Shown piece after piece: positions 441-9,328 of a stretch of DNA of 35,444 nucleotides. The notes under the pieces were generated by a model that had not been told where the DNA came from, made no database searches, and saw only the letters and a list, made by a program, of their open reading frames with translations. The position numbers were made by a program, and so were the translations under genes. The stretch comes from a virus, in the IMG/VR virus record IMGVR_UViG_3300044858_003165, positions 1-35,444 of that record; one strand, written 5' to 3'. Every line of letters starts with the position of its first letter. Position 1 is the first letter of the stretch.

Positions 441-653
441 ATGAGCTTAACGGACGCGATGCTTCGCCCCAAACCCATCCCCGCTACACCCTTAGGCCGC
501 TGGTTGCGCCGCACGGGTTATACCGGAGCCGAACTGGCGCGCGTGTTGGGCGTGAACAAAGGGACGATAAGCCGAATCGTTAACAACGGTGGTCCGATGT
601 CGGATGATTTGGCCAATCGGATCAAGAAAGTTACGGGCTTGAAACGCCTCTAA
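441..653 (+). CDS. Cro/C1-type HTH transcriptional regulator (70 aa)
   Basis: A small DNA-binding protein of the lambda-repressor-like HTH class. Residues about 25-50 (YTGAELARVLGVNKGTISRI) form the helix-turn-helix, followed by a short helical dimerisation tail ending GLKRL. At 70 residues it has Cro size, with no room for the C-terminal cleavage or oligomerisation domain of a full CI repressor. I chose the ATG at 441 because the promoter's -10 ends 7 bp upstream, giving a leaderless mRNA. An in-frame ATG at 363 would start inside operator O1 and upstream of the promoter. It probably binds O1 and O2 to control its own gene and the leftward genes. Confidence 0.8.
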   Translation: MSLTDAMLRPKPIPATPLGRWLRRTGYTGAELARVLGVNKGTISRIVNNGGPMSDDLANRIKKVTGLKRL

Positions 654-832: not shown

Positions 833-1005
833 CCGCCGCTGTCCCGATCCTGCTTGGCGCGTTCGCCATCATCGGCGCGGTGTTCGCCGCGATCTGGCTC
901 TTCGTGGCAAGCCAACGCGCTGACAGCGCAGAGAGCGCTGCAGATCGCGCCGCGCGCTGGCGCGAGCAGATGCGCAAGCTCTCACATGATCGGCGCTACC
1001 AATGA
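829..1005 (+). CDS. Single-pass membrane miniprotein (58 aa)
   Basis: Residues about 5-27 (VPILLGAFAIIGAVFAAIWL) form one strongly hydrophobic helix, followed by a charged amphipathic segment rich in Arg, Asp and Glu. The predicted product is an inner-membrane protein with a short N-terminus and a soluble helical tail. Its stop overlaps the methyltransferase start as ATGA, so the two are translationally coupled. No family is recognised. Small membrane proteins in early phage operons are often host-takeover or exclusion factors, but nothing here proves that. Confidence 0.65.
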   Translation: MTAAVPILLGAFAIIGAVFAAIWLFVASQRADSAESAADRAARWREQMRKLSHDRRYQ

Positions 1006-1712
1006 GCCGCGTCGAGATCATAGGCGACGCGACGCTCTACTTGGGTGACGCGCTCGAAGTGTTACCAACGTTGCAGCGCGTGGATGCTGTGGTGACTGAT
1101 CCCGTTTGGCCGAACGCGCCAGAGGGTATGTTTCCTGGCGTTGATCCTGACGCGCTTTGGCGTGAGGCGTGCGAATTGATGCCGCCGATGCGGCAGATGG
1201 TTGTCTGCCTTCGCAGCGATTGCGACCCCCGATTTTTGCGGCATGTGCCAAGCTCATTGCGATTTCAGCAAGTGGTGTGGTGTCCGTATGTCGTCCCTGG
1301 CTACACGGGACGCACGTTAGGCGGAAACGAAACCGCCTATGTGTTCGGCGATCCGATTCCGAGCGCCCCCGGCCAACGTGTGATCCCTGGCCAAGCGCCG
1401 AAAGTGCAGCCGCAAGATCGGCCAATGCAAAGAGGCGAGACGACGCATCCATGCCCTCGCTCTTTGCCGCATCAAGAGTGGCTTTTCCGCTGGTTCACGC
1501 AGCCCGGTGAAACCGTGCTTGATCCCTTCATGGGGTCTGGGACGGCGGGTGTGGCGGCGGTGAATTTCGGGCGTCCGTTCATTGGCATCGAAATCAATCT
1601 CGCGTTTTTCGACATCGCCTGCCGCCGCATTGAATCCGCTCGCAAGCAACCGCGCCTTTTTGCTGAGCCACGCGTGCAAGCGCAAACCGAACTGGAACTG
1701 ACACGAGACTGA
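1002..1712 (+). CDS. DNA methyltransferase, beta-class (N6-adenine or N4-cytosine)
   Basis: A site-specific DNA amino-methyltransferase using S-adenosylmethionine. The catalytic motif IV is DPVW (residues 33-36, a variant of DPPY/W) and comes first; the SAM-binding motif I, DPFMGSGT (174-181), is near the C-terminus, followed by GIEIN (195-199). This IV-to-I order is the beta class, which includes CcrM. At 236 aa it lacks the extra C-terminal domain of CcrM (about 358 aa), so its recognition site cannot be inferred. No endonuclease partner is present, so it is an orphan phage methylase, probably for anti-restriction or regulation. It is coupled to the 829 gene and followed by a terminator and a GcrA-like gene. 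Confidence 0.88.
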   Translation: MSRVEIIGDATLYLGDALEVLPTLQRVDAVVTDPVWPNAPEGMFPGVDPDALWREACELMPPMRQMVVCLRSDCDPRFLRHVPSSLRFQQVVWCPYVVPGYTGRTLGGNETAYVFGDPIPSAPGQRVIPGQAPKVQPQDRPMQRGETTHPCPRSLPHQEWLFRWFTQPGETVLDPFMGSGTAGVAAVNFGRPFIGIEINLAFFDIACRRIESARKQPRLFAEPRVQAQTELELTRD

Positions 1713-1716
1713 ACCG

Positions 1717-1751
1717 AAGGCGTGCGTCCACTGCGGGGCGCGCGCCTTTTT
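1717..1751 (+). terminator. Intrinsic terminator after the methyltransferase
   Basis: GGCGTGCG (1719-1726) pairs with CGCGCGCC (1739-1746) in an 8-bp stem with one U-G wobble. Flanking AA/TT extends it, and five T residues follow. The loop is 12 nt. It would attenuate read-through from the methyltransferase into the GcrA-like gene, whose SD starts about 10 nt later. Confidence 0.55.
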
Positions 1752-1770
1752 CATTGCGATGGAGGGAAGC

Positions 1771-2226
1771 ATGTGGACACCGCAACGCCTGGAAACGCTG
1801 CGCACGCTGTGGACCGAGGGCCACACGGCAAGCCAGATCGGCAACGCCCTAGGCGTGACGCGCAACAGCGTCATCGGCGTCGTGCATCGTCGCGGCTGGC
1901 AGCGACGGCTCGATCCGCAAAGCAACAGCACGGGCCGCGTTGAGCAGGTGCGCCGCGTGCGCCGCGAACGCTACGCCGCCGCGCGTCCGGCCAAAGTGCG
2001 CAAGGAAAAGCCCGCGCCAGAGCCTGCGCCAATCCCGGTCGAGCCGCTGAATGTCCCGTTTCTGGAGCGCCAGGTTGGCCAATGCCGCGCGATTACTGAC
2101 GCCACGCGCCCCGCGCAACGCGTCTGCGGTCACTTGATCGAAGGGGACGGCTCGTTCTGCCGCTGGCATCGCGCGATCTACTACGTCCCGGCCGATCCGA
2201 AGAAGAAGCCGAGGGTGCGGACGTGA
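1771..2226 (+). CDS. GcrA-family cell-cycle regulator (phage homologue)
   Basis: The N-terminus (WTPQRLETLRTLWTEGHTAS, then IGNALGVTRNSVIG and VVHRRGW, residues 2-43) matches the HTH-like DNA-binding domain of GcrA. The C-terminal domain (about 100-140) has the family's Cys/His pattern: QCRAI, VCGH and SFCRWH (C105, C119, C130, H133). The middle is a Pro/Lys linker. In Caulobacter, GcrA binds sigma-70 RNA polymerase and activates promoters carrying methylated GANTC. I start at ATG 1771 because GGAGG lies 5 nt upstream; an ATG at 1759 would have no SD. Its neighbours are a DNA methyltransferase upstream and a Mom-like gene downstream, coupled by GTGA. It may redirect host RNA polymerase to phage or host promoters. 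Confidence 0.85.
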   Translation: MWTPQRLETLRTLWTEGHTASQIGNALGVTRNSVIGVVHRRGWQRRLDPQSNSTGRVEQVRRVRRERYAAARPAKVRKEKPAPEPAPIPVEPLNVPFLERQVGQCRAITDATRPAQRVCGHLIEGDGSFCRWHRAIYYVPADPKKKPRVRT

Positions 2227-2867
2227 TCCACGAACTGAAAACCGCCGCGAAGCTTTTGTTTGGCCCCATCTCACGGCCCGAAGCCGTGCGCTTGTGCGTG
2301 TCGAAGCACTATCTGCACAGACCGCCGCCGCTTAGTCATGCGTTTGGGATTTTCGATGCTGGCAAAGCGGTTGGCGTCATCACATTTGGCATTCCTGCGA
2401 GTAGAGAGATTCTGACCGGGGCTTGCCCGACCAATCCAGAAAAGGTCATCGAACTAAACCGCCTTTGGGTGTCCGATGATTGCCCGAAAAACACTGAAAG
2501 TTGGTTTATTGCGAAGGCATTTCGCGCACTGCCGCCTCTAATCGTTGTCAGCTACGCCGACACCGCGCATGGCCATTTAGGGACAGTGTATCGCGCATCC
2601 GGTTTCCACTACGCCGGTTGGACAGACATGGACCGCAAAACGCCCCGGTTCGATTATGTCCCAGAAGATCACACTGAGAGCACGCTGTTCGGTGACGTTA
2701 CAACAAAGCGCCATTCGCGCGACGCGTTTCGCGTTGGCTTCGTTGAGAAAGTTCGGCGCCTTCCGAAGCATCGTTATTGGCGCGTCAGTGGAAATCGCCG
2801 CGAGCGCTTTCATCTCGAAAAGCTTTGTCGCTGGCCATCGCTCGCATGGAAGGCGCAAGCAGCATGA
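2223..2867 (+). CDS. Mom-like GNAT-fold DNA-modification protein
   Basis: Resembles the Mom family, whose Mu member converts adenine in DNA to a methylcarbamoyl derivative that blocks restriction enzymes. The signature regions are ELNRLWVSDDCPKNTESWF (77-95) and VSYADTAHGHLGTVYRASGF (109-128), corresponding to the conserved LxRL...PxNxxSW and SxAD...GTxYRAxGF blocks of Mom-like proteins. The fold is expected to be GNAT-like. The start is GTG at 2223, overlapping the GcrA-like stop. In Mu, mom is under Dam-methylation and Com control; here a methylase and a methylation-linked regulator precede it. A plain acetyltransferase is the alternative. The tail is basic, which suits DNA binding. Confidence 0.7.
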   Translation: MIHELKTAAKLLFGPISRPEAVRLCVSKHYLHRPPPLSHAFGIFDAGKAVGVITFGIPASREILTGACPTNPEKVIELNRLWVSDDCPKNTESWFIAKAFRALPPLIVVSYADTAHGHLGTVYRASGFHYAGWTDMDRKTPRFDYVPEDHTESTLFGDVTTKRHSRDAFRVGFVEKVRRLPKHRYWRVSGNRRERFHLEKLCRWPSLAWKAQAA

Positions 2868-4219
2868 TCCACGCAATCGACGCCGAACAAGCCGTACTAG
2901 GCGCGGTCCTGCTGAACCCGCAATGGATCGACCACGCCCAGCTCACGCCTGCGCACTTCTACGACCCCACGCACGCTGCGCTCTGGGAAGAGATGCAACA
3001 GCGCTACCGCGACGGGCGCCTGATTGACGGCGTGGCGCTTCGCGGCTTTGCGGCTGAGACGTTCAAGGAGCTAGGCGGGGTAGCCTACCTCGTAAAGCTC
3101 ATGGACCAGAGCGCGGCCATGTCGGCGCAAGTCACAGGGTACGGCGAGATCGTGCGCGATTGCGCCCGCCGCCGCGCTGTCACGGTCGCATGCGGTGAGA
3201 CTATCGCCCTCGCCAAGGAAGGGGGCCAGGACGTGCTGGCGCTGCTCGAACAGCGCTTGCAGGAGATCGCCTCAACCGACGCCGACGCCGACGCTTGGGA
3301 GAAGCTTGGCGTCATCGCCTGCGAGGCGGTGGAGCGCGCAGAGCTGGGCGAAGCGGTTGGCCTCAGCACCGGGATCTCCAAGCTCGATGAAGTCACAGGC
3401 GGCATGCAGCCCGGCACGCTCTGGGTCGTCGGCGGTGCGACCAGCATGGGCAAGAGCGTGTTCGGCGCGCACCTTGGCCGTGCGATCGCCTCACAGGGCT
3501 ACGGCGTGGGCGAGATGCATCTGGAGATGCGCCGCCTGCAAGTCGGCCTGCGCACGTCGGCCGCGCTGGCTTTCAACCCTGACCATCGCGCGGACAGCCC
3601 CTACTATCTCAGCGCCCAGCGCAACGCCCTGAAGCCCGCACAGTGGGATCAGCTACGCGGCGCGGCCAAGGCAAGCGCAAGCCTGCCGGTGTACGTGGAT
3701 GCCCGCCCAGGGCGCACGCTGAGCCAGATCGAAGCCGCAGCCCGGCGCCTGTTCCGCAAGATGCGCCGCGAAGGCGTGAAGCCCGGCGCGCTCATCATTG
3801 ACCACGAGGGCCTGATTGCCGCCGAACCCGGCGCGCGCTTCCCCAGCCAACTGGAGCGCACCAACGCGCGCTCTGAAGCGCTGCTGGCGATGGCGAAGCG
3901 CCTCAACGTCTGCGTCGTGGCGCTCTCCCAGATCACGAAGGAGGGCTCCCGCGCCGATGGCAAGGATCGGATGCCCGACAGCACTGATCTCAATTACGGC
4001 GGGGCGATCAGCCAAGCGGCCGACGTGGTCATCCTGCTTCACCGGGCCGCGTACTTCGCCGAACGCAAGATTGAGAAGGACCGGACACCCGAGGATTGGG
4101 CGGCGCTGAAGTCACGCGTCGCGACAGCCGTGGTCGACAAGGCCCGCGCCGGTCAGCGGTCGCAAGTTCAATTCCTCATGGACATGCCCACGGCGGCGGT
4201 TTGGGAGCAGAAACCATGA
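2864..4219 (+). CDS. Replicative DNA helicase, DnaB-like
   Basis: A ring helicase that would unwind the phage replication fork and recruit primase. The N-terminal DnaB domain opens with AIDAEQAVLGAVLLNPQWI (residues 4-22). The RecA-like ATPase domain has Walker A GATSMGKS (191-198), Walker B ALIIDH (309-314) and a sensor-like SQITKEGSR near 355. The C-terminal region with AADVVILLHR (385-394) is typical of DnaB. Length (451 aa) fits the family. I chose ATG 2864, overlapping the previous stop as ATGA, because the DnaB N-terminus starts right there; an in-frame upstream ATG (2777) would add 29 unrelated residues. It heads the replication module. Confidence 0.92.
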   Translation: MIHAIDAEQAVLGAVLLNPQWIDHAQLTPAHFYDPTHAALWEEMQQRYRDGRLIDGVALRGFAAETFKELGGVAYLVKLMDQSAAMSAQVTGYGEIVRDCARRRAVTVACGETIALAKEGGQDVLALLEQRLQEIASTDADADAWEKLGVIACEAVERAELGEAVGLSTGISKLDEVTGGMQPGTLWVVGGATSMGKSVFGAHLGRAIASQGYGVGEMHLEMRRLQVGLRTSAALAFNPDHRADSPYYLSAQRNALKPAQWDQLRGAAKASASLPVYVDARPGRTLSQIEAAARRLFRKMRREGVKPGALIIDHEGLIAAEPGARFPSQLERTNARSEALLAMAKRLNVCVVALSQITKEGSRADGKDRMPDSTDLNYGGAISQAADVVILLHRAAYFAERKIEKDRTPEDWAALKSRVATAVVDKARAGQRSQVQFLMDMPTAAVWEQKP

Positions 4220-5166
4220 GCGGCCTCCCCTGGTATAAGCGCGACCCCAACGCCTTCATCACAGGCTGCGAAAACGGCAACCTGACGCTGGAGGAGGTGG
4301 GCGCCTACACGCTGCTGATTGACGAGATGTACCGCCGTGGCGGGCCGCTCGTCGACGATCCTAAGCACGGCTGCGCCTACCTCCGCTGCGACCCGCGCAT
4401 CTGGTTGCGCGTCCGTGGCGCACTCATCCGCAAGGGCAAAATCTACGCCGCGTCCGGTGGCTTTTTGTCTAACCGACGCGTCGAGGAAGAGCTTCGAGCA
4501 CAGTACGATATGCGCGAAAAACGCGCCCGTGCTGCGCGTTCGGCTACCGCCAATAAAACATTACCAACAGATTACACCGCTGTAACTGAAGCGCAGCTAC
4601 GCTGTAACTCAACGGTAACTGAAGCGGAGCTATCGCCTAGCATTGAGCCTAAGTTGTTGTTTTCACACGATGTGGAGTCAGCAAATGCTCAGCAAATGCC
4701 CGGTAGAGTAAGAGTAAGAGAAGAAAGAGAGATACCTACGGTATCTGTCGGAACTGGCGTTCCGACCTCCATCGACGAACCCATTTCCGAAGCCCTCAGG
4801 GAATACAATCTGGCAGCTACGCGCGCCGGGTGGGTGAAGGCGCGTCTTCCAATCAGCACTAACCGACGGCGCCTCATCCGCGCACGCCTGCGCGACGGCG
4901 GCATGGCCGAGTGGATGGCCCAGATCGCTGACGCCGAGTCCCAGCCCTTCCTTGCCGGGGACAACAAGGACGGCTGGCGCATGGATTTGGACTTCTTCGC
5001 CAGCGAGAGCGGCCGAACCCGGATCATGGAAGGCAAGTACCGCCGCGCCCCCAAGCCGGGCGCCGTGTTCGATGCCGCCGGCGCTTTCCGCATCATGCGC
5101 GAGCACGGCTACCGGCACCCCCAACTCACAGACGAAATGATCGAAGCCCTAGGAGCGAGCGCATGA
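4216..5166 (+). CDS. DUF1376-type replication protein (possible helicase loader or initiator)
   Basis: The N-terminal 75 residues (LPWYKRDPNAFITGC, then LTLEEVGAYTLLIDEMY) match the DUF1376 (YdaU-like) domain of phage replication proteins. A linker (about 100-180) is rich in Ser, Thr and Glu, with lower GC than its surroundings. The C-terminal segment (about 190-316) carries a conserved-looking block, WMAQIADAESQPFLAGDNK then GWRMDLDFF, like the C-terminal DNA-binding part of phage initiator or DnaT-like proteins. Start ATG 4216 overlaps the helicase stop as ATGA; an upstream in-frame ATG (4096) only adds antisense-like residues. Its place directly after the helicase supports a loader or origin-binding role. 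Confidence 0.75.
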   Translation: MSGLPWYKRDPNAFITGCENGNLTLEEVGAYTLLIDEMYRRGGPLVDDPKHGCAYLRCDPRIWLRVRGALIRKGKIYAASGGFLSNRRVEEELRAQYDMREKRARAARSATANKTLPTDYTAVTEAQLRCNSTVTEAELSPSIEPKLLFSHDVESANAQQMPGRVRVREEREIPTVSVGTGVPTSIDEPISEALREYNLAATRAGWVKARLPISTNRRRLIRARLRDGGMAEWMAQIADAESQPFLAGDNKDGWRMDLDFFASESGRTRIMEGKYRRAPKPGAVFDAAGAFRIMREHGYRHPQLTDEMIEALGASA

Positions 5167-5357
5167 CCGAACGGGAGAAGGAACTACAGACCGCCGTCGA
5201 TACGTTTCTGGCGCCGATCTATGCCCGCGTCGGGCGCTTGATCGAGGAGCAGCCGGACCGCTCGCTTGCCGATCTGCTGGACGCTTACGGCGTCGAGATG
5301 ACGTGCGCCGATCTGCACCAGCTCTACCGCGCGACCGAGCAGGAGCTGGCCCAATGA
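5163..5357 (+). CDS. Small acidic helical hypothetical protein (64 aa)
   Basis: Flanked on both sides by ATGA-type four-base overlaps, which strongly supports it as a gene. It is predicted to be all-helical and acidic (MTEREKELQTAVDTFLAPIY at the N-terminus), with no recognised domain. Its position between the DUF1376 protein and the VRR-NUC nuclease suggests an accessory role in replication or recombination. Confidence 0.65.
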   Translation: MTEREKELQTAVDTFLAPIYARVGRLIEEQPDRSLADLLDAYGVEMTCADLHQLYRATEQELAQ

Positions 5358-5785
5358 TTCGAGCCGAAGAACAACTCCACCGCGCCTGCGTGGCGCATCT
5401 GCAAGCCGCGCTGCCGAAGCCGTGGATCGTCTGGCACACGCCCAACGGCGGAGGCCGCTCCAAAGCCGAAGCGGGCATCCTGAAAGCGATGGGCGTGCTG
5501 GCGGGGATGCCGGACCTGTTCGTGATGGGGCCGTATGTTGCCGGTTACGGCATCGGCGGCGACATCACCGGACCCCGGCTCATCGCAATCGAGTTTAAAG
5601 CCCCGCCCAAGCGCCTACGCAGCGGGGGGCTGTCCAAGGCCTCCCCGAGGCTTTCCCCCGCTCAGCGGGCTCGCCAAGCCGATCTAGGGGCATGTGGCGT
5701 GCCGTACCTCGTCATCGACGACATCGCGGACATGATCCAGAGCCTGCGCGCCCTGGGCGTGCCGTTGCGCGGGAGGGCGATGTGA
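5354..5785 (+). CDS. VRR-NUC domain nuclease
   Basis: A small single-domain VRR-NUC protein (143 aa) of the PD-(D/E)XK nuclease superfamily. Visible motifs are WHTPNGGGRSKAEAGILK (residues 29-46), the acidic GMPDLF (53-58) and IEFKAP (about 78-83), the D...ExK catalytic set. A C-terminal LSPAQRARQADLGACGVPYL block is the typical family tail. Such stand-alone phage enzymes are thought to act on branched DNA as Holliday-junction resolvases. Start ATG 5354 overlaps the previous stop. It would resolve recombination intermediates before headful packaging. Confidence 0.85.
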   Translation: MIRAEEQLHRACVAHLQAALPKPWIVWHTPNGGGRSKAEAGILKAMGVLAGMPDLFVMGPYVAGYGIGGDITGPRLIAIEFKAPPKRLRSGGLSKASPRLSPAQRARQADLGACGVPYLVIDDIADMIQSLRALGVPLRGRAM

Positions 5786-6111
5786 GCAAGTGGGACCGGG
5801 GCATGACCCCAGAAACGCGAGCCGCCCTAAACGCAATCGCCAAGCGCCACGGCTTCACGCTGGAGCGCCTACAGGCGCCGGGGCGTTTCAAGGCGCTCTG
5901 CATCGCGCGCGCCGATTGCTATCGCTATCTGGCGGAAAAGGATTGGAGCACGCCAGCCATAGGCGGCCTCTTCAACCGCGACCACACCACCGTTCTCTGG
6001 TGGCTTGATCCCCAGCGCACCGAGGCCAAGCGCGAGCGCTGCAAGGCCCGCTACCACGCAAAAATCAAAGCCGTAGGTGAGCGCCCAATGGGCGCGAGGA
6101 GGGCCGGATGA
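5782..6111 (+). CDS. DnaA domain-IV-like DNA-binding protein
   Basis: Residues about 38-76 resemble the DnaA C-terminal DnaA-box-binding domain. CYRYLAEKDWSTPAIGGLF followed by NRDHTTVLWWL corresponds to the DnaA signature with its IGxxFxxRDHTTV core. There is no AAA+ ATPase part; the protein is only 109 aa. It could bind DnaA boxes at a phage origin or compete with host DnaA. The start is GTG 5782, overlapping the nuclease stop as GTGA; extending upstream in the same frame (to ATG 5692) would read antisense-like sequence inside the nuclease gene. It sits inside the replication module. Confidence 0.75.
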   Translation: MSKWDRGMTPETRAALNAIAKRHGFTLERLQAPGRFKALCIARADCYRYLAEKDWSTPAIGGLFNRDHTTVLWWLDPQRTEAKRERCKARYHAKIKAVGERPMGARRAG

Positions 6112-6650
6112 GCGTTCAAGCCAAACACGCAGAGATCGAATGGCGCCGCTGGGCAGACGAGGAAACGTATTACCCGTTACGCGATGACACTCGCGCCGTT
6201 CAGCAGCACGGCCGTGTCCGGCAATACCGGGCGCGCTGGGCCATTGAGCAGGATTCCGTTCGCAAGCGGCTGACGGATGGCGAGGCGGCAGTAGCGCGCG
6301 CCGCCCGCTGGCTTTACGTCAAGACATTGGACCCTAAGCGAACGAACTTTGAGTTCGTGGACAGCGGCGGGGCCCAGAACGCCTGCGAGGCGAGGCGGCT
6401 GATGCACCGCTTCGAGAAGGACAGGTTCGCCAATTTGGAGCAAGTCAGCAGCCGCATCAAAGGCGGCAAGCAATGCTTCCACGGCATCTGTGAGGGCGAC
6501 AGCTTGGCCGAAATCCAGCGCCGGTGCGGCATGGACCGCGACCATCGGGGCTCAATCGACCTGATCAAAACCGTCCTTCGCGCACTCGAACTTTACACCG
6601 AGTTCAACGAAGCCGAGGCCGAGCGTTGGAATAATCGGAGACGCCCTTGA
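6108..6650 (+). CDS. Hypothetical protein, last gene of the early/replication operon
   Basis: 180 residues, basic and mostly helical. Residues about 133-170 (SLAEIQRRCGMDRDHRGSI and the following helix) could form an HTH. I do not recognise a family. It is the last gene before a terminator and a non-coding island that precedes the packaging genes. That is where many phages keep a late-gene regulator or antiterminator, so a regulatory role is a reasonable guess only. Start ATG 6108 overlaps the previous stop as ATGA. Confidence 0.65.
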   Translation: MSVQAKHAEIEWRRWADEETYYPLRDDTRAVQQHGRVRQYRARWAIEQDSVRKRLTDGEAAVARAARWLYVKTLDPKRTNFEFVDSGGAQNACEARRLMHRFEKDRFANLEQVSSRIKGGKQCFHGICEGDSLAEIQRRCGMDRDHRGSIDLIKTVLRALELYTEFNEAEAERWNNRRRP

Positions 6651-7919: not shown

Positions 7920-9328
7920 CCTGGGCGCCGCAAGCTGGGCCACAGACAGCGTTTGTTAATTGCCCGCTGAATGACGTTGTGTACGGCGGGGCGCGTGGCG
8001 GCGGTAAGACGGACGCAGCCCTAGGCGAATGGGCGCTCCACGCTGAGCGCTACGGACTCGACGCCAAAGGCTTGATGATCCGGCGCACACGCAAAGCGCT
8101 GGAGAGTACGATCGCCAGGGCTAAGCAGCTCTATCGCGGCGTGGCTCAATGGCAGGAGTCCAAGAGCCGGTTCGTATGGCGCAACGGCGCTGTGCTGGTC
8201 ATGAACTATCTGGAGCGCGACGACGATGCGGACCAGTATCAGGGTCACGACTACACGCGGGTGTACGTTGAAGAACTGACGCAGTTCGCCAGCCCTGCGC
8301 CGATCGACAAGCTACGGGCGACGCTGCGCTCTGGTGTGGGCGTGCCAACGGGCTTCCGCGGGACGTGCAATCCGGGCGGCGCCGGCCATACGTGGGTCAA
8401 GGAGCGCTATATCGACCCTGGCCCCTGGAAAGTGACGACACACACGTTTCGCTGCCCGTTCACGCATCGGGAAATCGAGACAAAGCGGGTCTTCATCCCG
8501 GCCAAGCTGAGCGATAACCCGCAGCTTCTGGAGAATGACCCGAGCTACGTAGCGCAGCTCTATCAGTCCGGTTCGCCGCAACTGGTCAGAGCGTGGCTTG
8601 AAGGCGACTGGGACGTCATCGAGGGCGCGTTCTTCCCTGAGTGGAGCGCGGCCAAGCATGTGCTTCAGCCGTTCGCCATTCCGCAGCACTGGGCGCGGAT
8701 CAGGGGCTTCGACTGGGGCTCGGCCGCGCCGTTTAGCGTAGGCTGGTGGGCTGTGGTCAGCGAAGACACGCTGCGCCCTGAGGGGATGCTGCCGCGCGGT
8801 GCGCTGGTGCGCTATCGCGAGTGGTACGGATCGAGCAGCCCGAACGTGGGCTTAAAGCTGACGGCGGAACAGGTGGCGGATGGGATCAAGGAAAGGGAGC
8901 TTGCTGGCGAGCGTGTCGCCCTTGCCGTGGCCGATCCTGCTATCTTCGCGGAGAATGGCGGTCCTAGCATCGCTGAGCGCATGGGCACGCGCGGCGTTCA
9001 CTGGACGCCCGGAGATAACAAGCGAGTGGCCCAAGTCGGCGCGGTTGGTGGCTGGGACCAAGTACGCGGCCGGCTCGTCGGCATTGATGGACGCCCGATG
9101 CTCTACAGTTTCAGCACATGCGTAGCGTGGAACCGGACGTTCCCGGCGTTGCAGCATGATACGCTCAGACCAGAAGACGTGGACACGGACGGTGAGGATC
9201 ACGCGCCGGACGAGGGCCGATATGTGTGCATGAGCAGACCGTGGACAGCGCCGACGCCTCAGAAGCCGAAGCGTCGCGATATGTGGGGAGATACTGAGAG
9301 TGGGGAAGTGAATTGGCGTACGGCGTAG
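7877..9328 (+). CDS. terL: Terminase large subunit
   Basis: The ATP-driven packaging motor and headful nuclease. Walker A is GGARGGGKT (residues 37-45), Walker B VYVEEL (129-134), and the coupling C-motif is near GTCNPGG (162-168). The nuclease domain shows FDWG (D279) and AVADP (D353), the expected RNase-H-fold acidic residues. Length (483 aa) is normal. The start is taken at ATG 7877 inside the TerS gene; this 43-nt overlap implies translational coupling. The C-terminus is followed at once by the portal gene, as in P22-like phages. Confidence 0.93.
   Translation: MGAEIRQQRVRRELAWAPQAGPQTAFVNCPLNDVVYGGARGGGKTDAALGEWALHAERYGLDAKGLMIRRTRKALESTIARAKQLYRGVAQWQESKSRFVWRNGAVLVMNYLERDDDADQYQGHDYTRVYVEELTQFASPAPIDKLRATLRSGVGVPTGFRGTCNPGGAGHTWVKERYIDPGPWKVTTHTFRCPFTHREIETKRVFIPAKLSDNPQLLENDPSYVAQLYQSGSPQLVRAWLEGDWDVIEGAFFPEWSAAKHVLQPFAIPQHWARIRGFDWGSAAPFSVGWWAVVSEDTLRPEGMLPRGALVRYREWYGSSSPNVGLKLTAEQVADGIKERELAGERVALAVADPAIFAENGGPSIAERMGTRGVHWTPGDNKRVAQVGAVGGWDQVRGRLVGIDGRPMLYSFSTCVAWNRTFPALQHDTLRPEDVDTDGEDHAPDEGRYVCMSRPWTAPTPQKPKRRDMWGDTESGEVNWRTA

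Follow-up and report, generated by a model that had tools for sequence, protein, structure and literature searches.

The CcrM-GcrA system of Caulobacter crescentus (structures 7ye1, 5yiv and 5yix; CcrM, 6pbd) resembles the phage locus studied here in the domain plan and recognition helix of GcrA and in the β class and fold of the DNA methyltransferase (MTase). It differs in that the MTase of the window, i.e. the whole stretch of 35,444 bases analyzed (virus record IMGVR_UViG_3300044858_003165), is phage-encoded, comprises 236 amino acids, lacks the C-terminal part of CcrM and carries a DPVW motif, and in that the sigma-interacting domain (SID) of the window GcrA is devoid of the WPIGDP sequence. 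Phage-encoded GcrA has been proposed to up-regulate host replication genes in phiCbK-like Caulobacter phages (PMC3556154) and in Agrobacterium phage Atu_ph08 (PMC6630229); in the available parts of both reports, an adjoining MTase or stand-alone DnaA domain IV (DnaA-IV) gene is not described as a linked unit.

The gene order of the window (MTase, DnaB, primosomal protein, DnaA-IV) is also found in Sinorhizobium phage phiLM21 (NC_029046), which, however, lacks GcrA, has an MTase from an unrelated family and has no annotated Mom; some phiLM21-like prophages carry GcrA (PMC12429752). In Synechococcus phage Ssp-JY42 (PP438432), a single early region encodes, in this order, GcrA, DnaB and a DnaA C-terminal protein as in the window, but neither an MTase nor Mom was found in the 13 kb examined, and the named host is a cyanobacterium. 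Either the activity of GcrA extends beyond the alphaproteobacteria or this host was named in error; the GcrA and DnaA C-terminal protein genes of this phage (locus L246 of our collection) are located at 3885-4496 and 8175-8591. Finally, the Mom protein of phage Mu belongs to the same family as the product of 2223-2867 (PF25680; PDB 8bv8), whereas its gene neighborhood differs, mom overlapping gcrA in the window. Each part of the locus is already known in phages.

Gene content of the early region

All early genes (1002-6650) lie on the plus strand (Table 1), and downstream of them follow genes for a putative small terminase subunit, TerL, portal, head and tail proteins. From gcrA to position 6650 consecutive genes overlap by a few bases, and they are therefore likely to be co-expressed as a single transcript. 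Among 50,697 deposited phages, none was retrieved as a near relative by megablast with the first 20 kb of the window. The early module is repeated in a 10 kb IMG/VR contig, which is near-identical wherever proteins were compared. The host is probably an alphaproteobacterium; since a search of genome contigs with TerL gave only distant relatives from Clostridia, this assignment draws on the presence of GcrA and on the depletion of GANTC described below.

Two further features were observed. The gap upstream of the MTase gene contains, at 794-821, an operator-like inverted repeat (CTCGTT...AACGAG) adjoining TTGTCCACA, which on the minus strand is one mismatch away from a DnaA box. Inside the DUF1376 gene, the GC content drops to 44-50% at 4541-4700 (63% for the genome), and this AT-rich dip, in which an 18-nt sequence is directly repeated (4582 and 4615), is a possible candidate for a replication origin.

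Table 1. Features of the early region of the window, with the evidence for each assignment
Feature	Position	Strand	Evidence
Small HTH (Cro/Xre-like) regulator, 70 aa, upstream of the module	441..653	+	HTH_3 E 1.5e-4, below cut-off; PHROG HTH families
β-Class DNA MTase, 236 aa, motif IV VTDPVWPN, motif I DPFMGSGT	1002..1712	+	PF01555 (N6_N4_Mtase) 51.5 bits (cut-off 26.7); phrog_67 E 8e-34; AlphaFold pLDDT 80; Foldseek; clade alignment
Intrinsic-terminator-like hairpin with T run, between MTase and gcrA	1716..1749	+	Fold of 1712-1765: -27.6 kcal/mol, z -3.2
GcrA-family protein, 151 aa, N-terminal DNA-binding domain and C-terminal sigma-interacting-like domain	1771..2226	+	PF07750 62 bits (cut-off 26.9), profile positions 3-152 of 155; 7ye1 phmmer E 2e-13; structure match
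Mom-type DNA modification protein, start overlaps gcrA stop (GTGA)	2223..2867	+	PF25680 121 bits (cut-off 27.1), E 5e-35; phrog_1384 E 2e-41; PDB 8bv8 (methylcarbamoylase Mom) E 2e-10
DnaB-family replicative helicase, start overlaps Mom stop	2864..4219	+	PF03796 E 2e-38; PF00772 E 1e-18
DUF1376 primosomal/helicase-loader-like protein	4216..5166	+	PF07120 E 3e-12; phrog_9327 E 3e-18
VRR-NUC-like nuclease	5354..5785	+	PF08774 17.1 bits, below cut-off; phrog_824 (function unknown) E 3e-24
Stand-alone DnaA-IV, 109 aa, start overlaps VRR-NUC stop	5782..6111	+	PF08299 29 bits (cut-off 31.5, just missed), E 1e-6; family profile to 1j1v E 4e-27
180-aa protein, last gene of the overlapping early operon	6108..6650	+	No Pfam, PHROG or NCBIfam family match

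MTase, GcrA, Mom and DnaA-IV proteins

A preliminary description of this DNA had proposed that its early region encodes a β-class DNA methyltransferase, a full-length GcrA and a protein consisting of a DnaA-box-binding-like domain alone, and all three identifications were borne out. The predicted fold of the MTase was nearest to those of M1.HpyAVI, M.BceJIV and CcrM (Foldseek E values of about 1e-12 to 1e-11), and motif IV (DPVW, residues 33-36) precedes motif I (DPFMGSGT, residues 174-181). Although the canonical motif IV, (D/N/S)PP(Y/F/W), is absent and replaced by DPVW, the enzyme belongs in the β class by its fold and its other motifs. The sequence VTDPVWPN (1092-1115) was invariant in all 10 aligned members of a clade (loci L004-L014 among them), the others being 38-56% identical to the window MTase. 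As motif I and many further invariant residues are retained, the enzymes of this clade are probably active, judged from their sequences. A literature search for the VTDPVWPN motif retrieved nothing relevant, and the clade represents an unusual active-site variant that is open to assay.

The same description had pointed to CcrM methylation as one arm of the Caulobacter cell-cycle circuit; an identity of the MTase with CcrM was rejected. The protein scored 40.5 bits against the CcrM model NF050803 (equivalog cut-off 830), to which it aligned at positions 199-254 of 350 only, and with 236 versus about 350 amino acids it is devoid of the C-terminal part of CcrM. A relationship to the GANTC-specific enzyme of phiLM21 was likewise discarded, as no homology between the two proteins was found.

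For GcrA, the predicted structure fitted both solved domains of the C. crescentus protein. The DNA-binding domain deviated by 0.7 Å from, and was 58% identical to, that of C. crescentus GcrA on methylated DNA (5yiv), and the SID deviated by 2.3 Å from 5yix, so that both functional domains are kept in the modeled protein. The recognition helix reads TRNSVIG (TRNAVIG in Caulobacter), and this near-identity suggests that the specificity of GcrA is conserved. In the SID, the residues C, C, C and H were invariant across the aligned phage GcrA proteins including that of the window, in which CRAITDAT takes the place of the C(R/K)WPxGDP found in Caulobacter and many phage GcrA proteins. The score against the host equivalog NF050816 was 62.5 bits and did not reach the cut-off of 280; the protein is a member of the GcrA family and not the host equivalog.

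The stand-alone DnaA-IV of the window gave no match in a tblastn search against deposited phages. A profile built from the protein and its phage relatives matched domain IV of E. coli DnaA (1j1v), and the DnaA-box contact residues are kept (R43, D67, H68, T69 and T70; R...DHTT). These correspond to R399, D433, H434, T435 and T436 of E. coli DnaA, and the equivalent of H439 is a tryptophan. An AAA+ ATPase domain is absent from the protein, which matched the full-length DnaA model at positions 353-410 of 437 only.

The Mom gene between gcrA and dnaB was absent from the preliminary description. Its GTG start codon lies within the GTGA that also contains the gcrA stop codon, and the MTase gene, directly upstream of gcrA, is parted from it by a strong terminator-like hairpin that may serve as a termination or antitermination control point. 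Dam methylation governs mom expression in phage Mu. By analogy, the timing of mom and of the replication operon could be set by an epigenetic switch made up of the MTase and GcrA, with GcrA activating a promoter only after its methylation by the phage MTase; the overlap of the two genes and the position of the hairpin would fit such a switch. The gcrA-mom overlap was, however, seen only in the window phage and near-identical contigs, and the MTase-gcrA gap contains no GANTC, so we regard a switch of this type as very improbable. A general linkage of gcrA and mom was rejected, as Mom was found in none of 39 further gcrA loci.

Target sites in the phage genome

The GANTC sequence occurs 39 times in the phage genome versus 103 expected, the lowest ratio among 254 words of the same form. 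In the coding sequence, 32 GANTC sites were counted versus 56 ± 6 after synonymous shuffling, and the extended GcrA-type site YGANTCR was present 9 times versus 47 expected. The depletion of GANTC is general among these phages and may mostly be a marker of host type. For DnaA-IV, neither a perfect DnaA box, nor TTWTNCACA, nor a cluster of boxes beyond the null expectation was found in the genome, which led us to reject DnaA boxes as the basis of a phage origin. Given canonical specificities, the sites of GcrA and DnaA-IV would be located mainly on the host chromosome, which is favored as the target because the phage genome is so strongly depleted of GANTC.

Numerous 6-base palindromes are missing, or almost missing, from the window (CCATGG, 0 versus 12.6 expected; CCGCGG, 5 versus 38.8), as restriction avoidance would give.

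Gene linkage in gcrA-bearing phages and possible roles

Viral contigs bearing gcrA were gathered twice with different query alignments, giving a first set of 65 non-redundant loci (the window and 64 others) and a second set of 39 loci with ≤60% GcrA identity to the first. Most of the records are fragments. Genes were scored as adjacent when they shared a strand and lay no more than 300 bp apart, and the expected numbers were derived from uniform placement, which underestimates how strongly early genes cluster by nature. On this basis, an MTase gene was adjacent to gcrA in 10 of the 65 loci of set 1 including the window (9 of 64 without it; 1.1 expected, p 3e-7) and in 6 of the 39 loci of set 2 (0.7 expected). 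DnaA-IV was the immediate same-strand neighbor of gcrA in three of the 64 loci besides the window in set 1 and in 7 of 39 in set 2 (0.5 expected), whereas DnaB was adjacent to gcrA in none of the 39 loci of set 2. When adjacency of MTase genes (15/40) was compared with that of DnaB (4/25), the excess was marginal (p 0.055).

The MTases adjacent to gcrA fall into two unrelated families. Half of those in set 1 belong to phrog_799, the family of the phiLM21 MTase, which is reported to be GANTC-specific (PMC5537653). Several of the adjacent MTases have SPPF or SPPY motifs, which are not diagnostic of adenine enzymes. No description of a recurrent MTase-gcrA pairing in phages was found in the searchable literature, which is weak evidence of novelty. 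In both sets, gcrA pairs repeatedly with an MTase or DnaA-IV gene in independent phages.

Compact triples, with MTase, gcrA and DnaA-IV within 1.6-1.7 kb, were present in four loci (L154, L085, L153 and L004) in four different orders, and the identities of the genes were confirmed by Pfam and PHROG models. An enrichment of triples over independent carriage was rejected, as none of three tests was significant: 7 of 60 loci versus 5.4 expected (p 0.25), 11 of 65 in set 1 (p 0.13), and 3 of 39 in set 2 with no enrichment. DnaA-IV was nearly as common in portal-related control phages, almost all of them lacking gcrA (9/34, 26%), as in gcrA phages (17/50, 34%). The earlier suggestion that the three parts act together is partly supported, by the recurrent gcrA-MTase and gcrA-DnaA-IV pairs and not by the triple, and a takeover of host replication timing by them is hypothetical. 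A fair reading of these data is pairwise linkage within a compact replication module and not an obligate three-part machine.

The frequency of DnaA-IV in the control phages and the lack of triple enrichment also fit a rival explanation, in which the genes are independent, ordinary parts of an early module: the MTase and Mom, both modification enzymes, would act against restriction, GcrA would be a middle-gene activator and DnaA-IV a part of the phage initiator, with no takeover of the cell cycle. The missing palindromes are consistent with restriction pressure, and where a locus had both gcrA and DnaB, gcrA almost always preceded DnaB on the same strand. This explanation has to account for MTase and DnaA-IV genes as recurrent immediate neighbors of gcrA in two independent sets, and with GcrA-type sites nearly lacking and no DnaA-box clusters, targets within the phage genome would call for altered specificities. 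We consider it possible, though not probable.

On balance, we think the locus somewhat more probably represents an early operon for replication and host control in a probable alphaproteobacterial phage, with parts that form an interchangeable toolkit and not an obligate three-part machine. Evidence unfavorable to this view comprises the missing enrichment of triples, the frequency of DnaA-IV in control phages, the marginal excess of MTase over DnaB adjacency, the hairpin between the MTase gene and gcrA, the SPPF/SPPY motifs of several neighboring MTases, the CRAITDAT segment of the window SID and the generality of the GANTC depletion. In such an operon, the phage GcrA would bind the sigma70 RNA polymerase of the host and, given its near-identical recognition helix, may steer the polymerase to methylated GANTC-type promoters, thereby increasing the expression of S-phase and replication genes in the host, perhaps together with that of a few phage promoters. 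The MTase and Mom would modify DNA, and the MTase may keep GcrA sites methylated when the host CcrM is absent. DnaA-IV would bind DnaA boxes; its simplest role would be to compete with host DnaA at oriC, an alternative being that of an accessory in phage initiation. A stronger version, which we regard as tentative and rather doubtful, is a portable writer-reader pair, i.e. a methylase beside gcrA and often joined by a DnaA-box binder, which has been assembled repeatedly from unrelated methylase families and forces or holds the alphaproteobacterial host in a replication-competent state during infection.

Epigenetic control of the cell cycle has one of its model cases in GcrA and CcrM. The placement of gcrA beside either partner in phages hints at exchangeable phage tools with a link to the host cell cycle. 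If phages repeatedly bring an adjacent writer and reader, they would provide minimal, separable versions of the GcrA-CcrM circuit and with them a direct test of the viral reprogramming of the alphaproteobacterial cell cycle.
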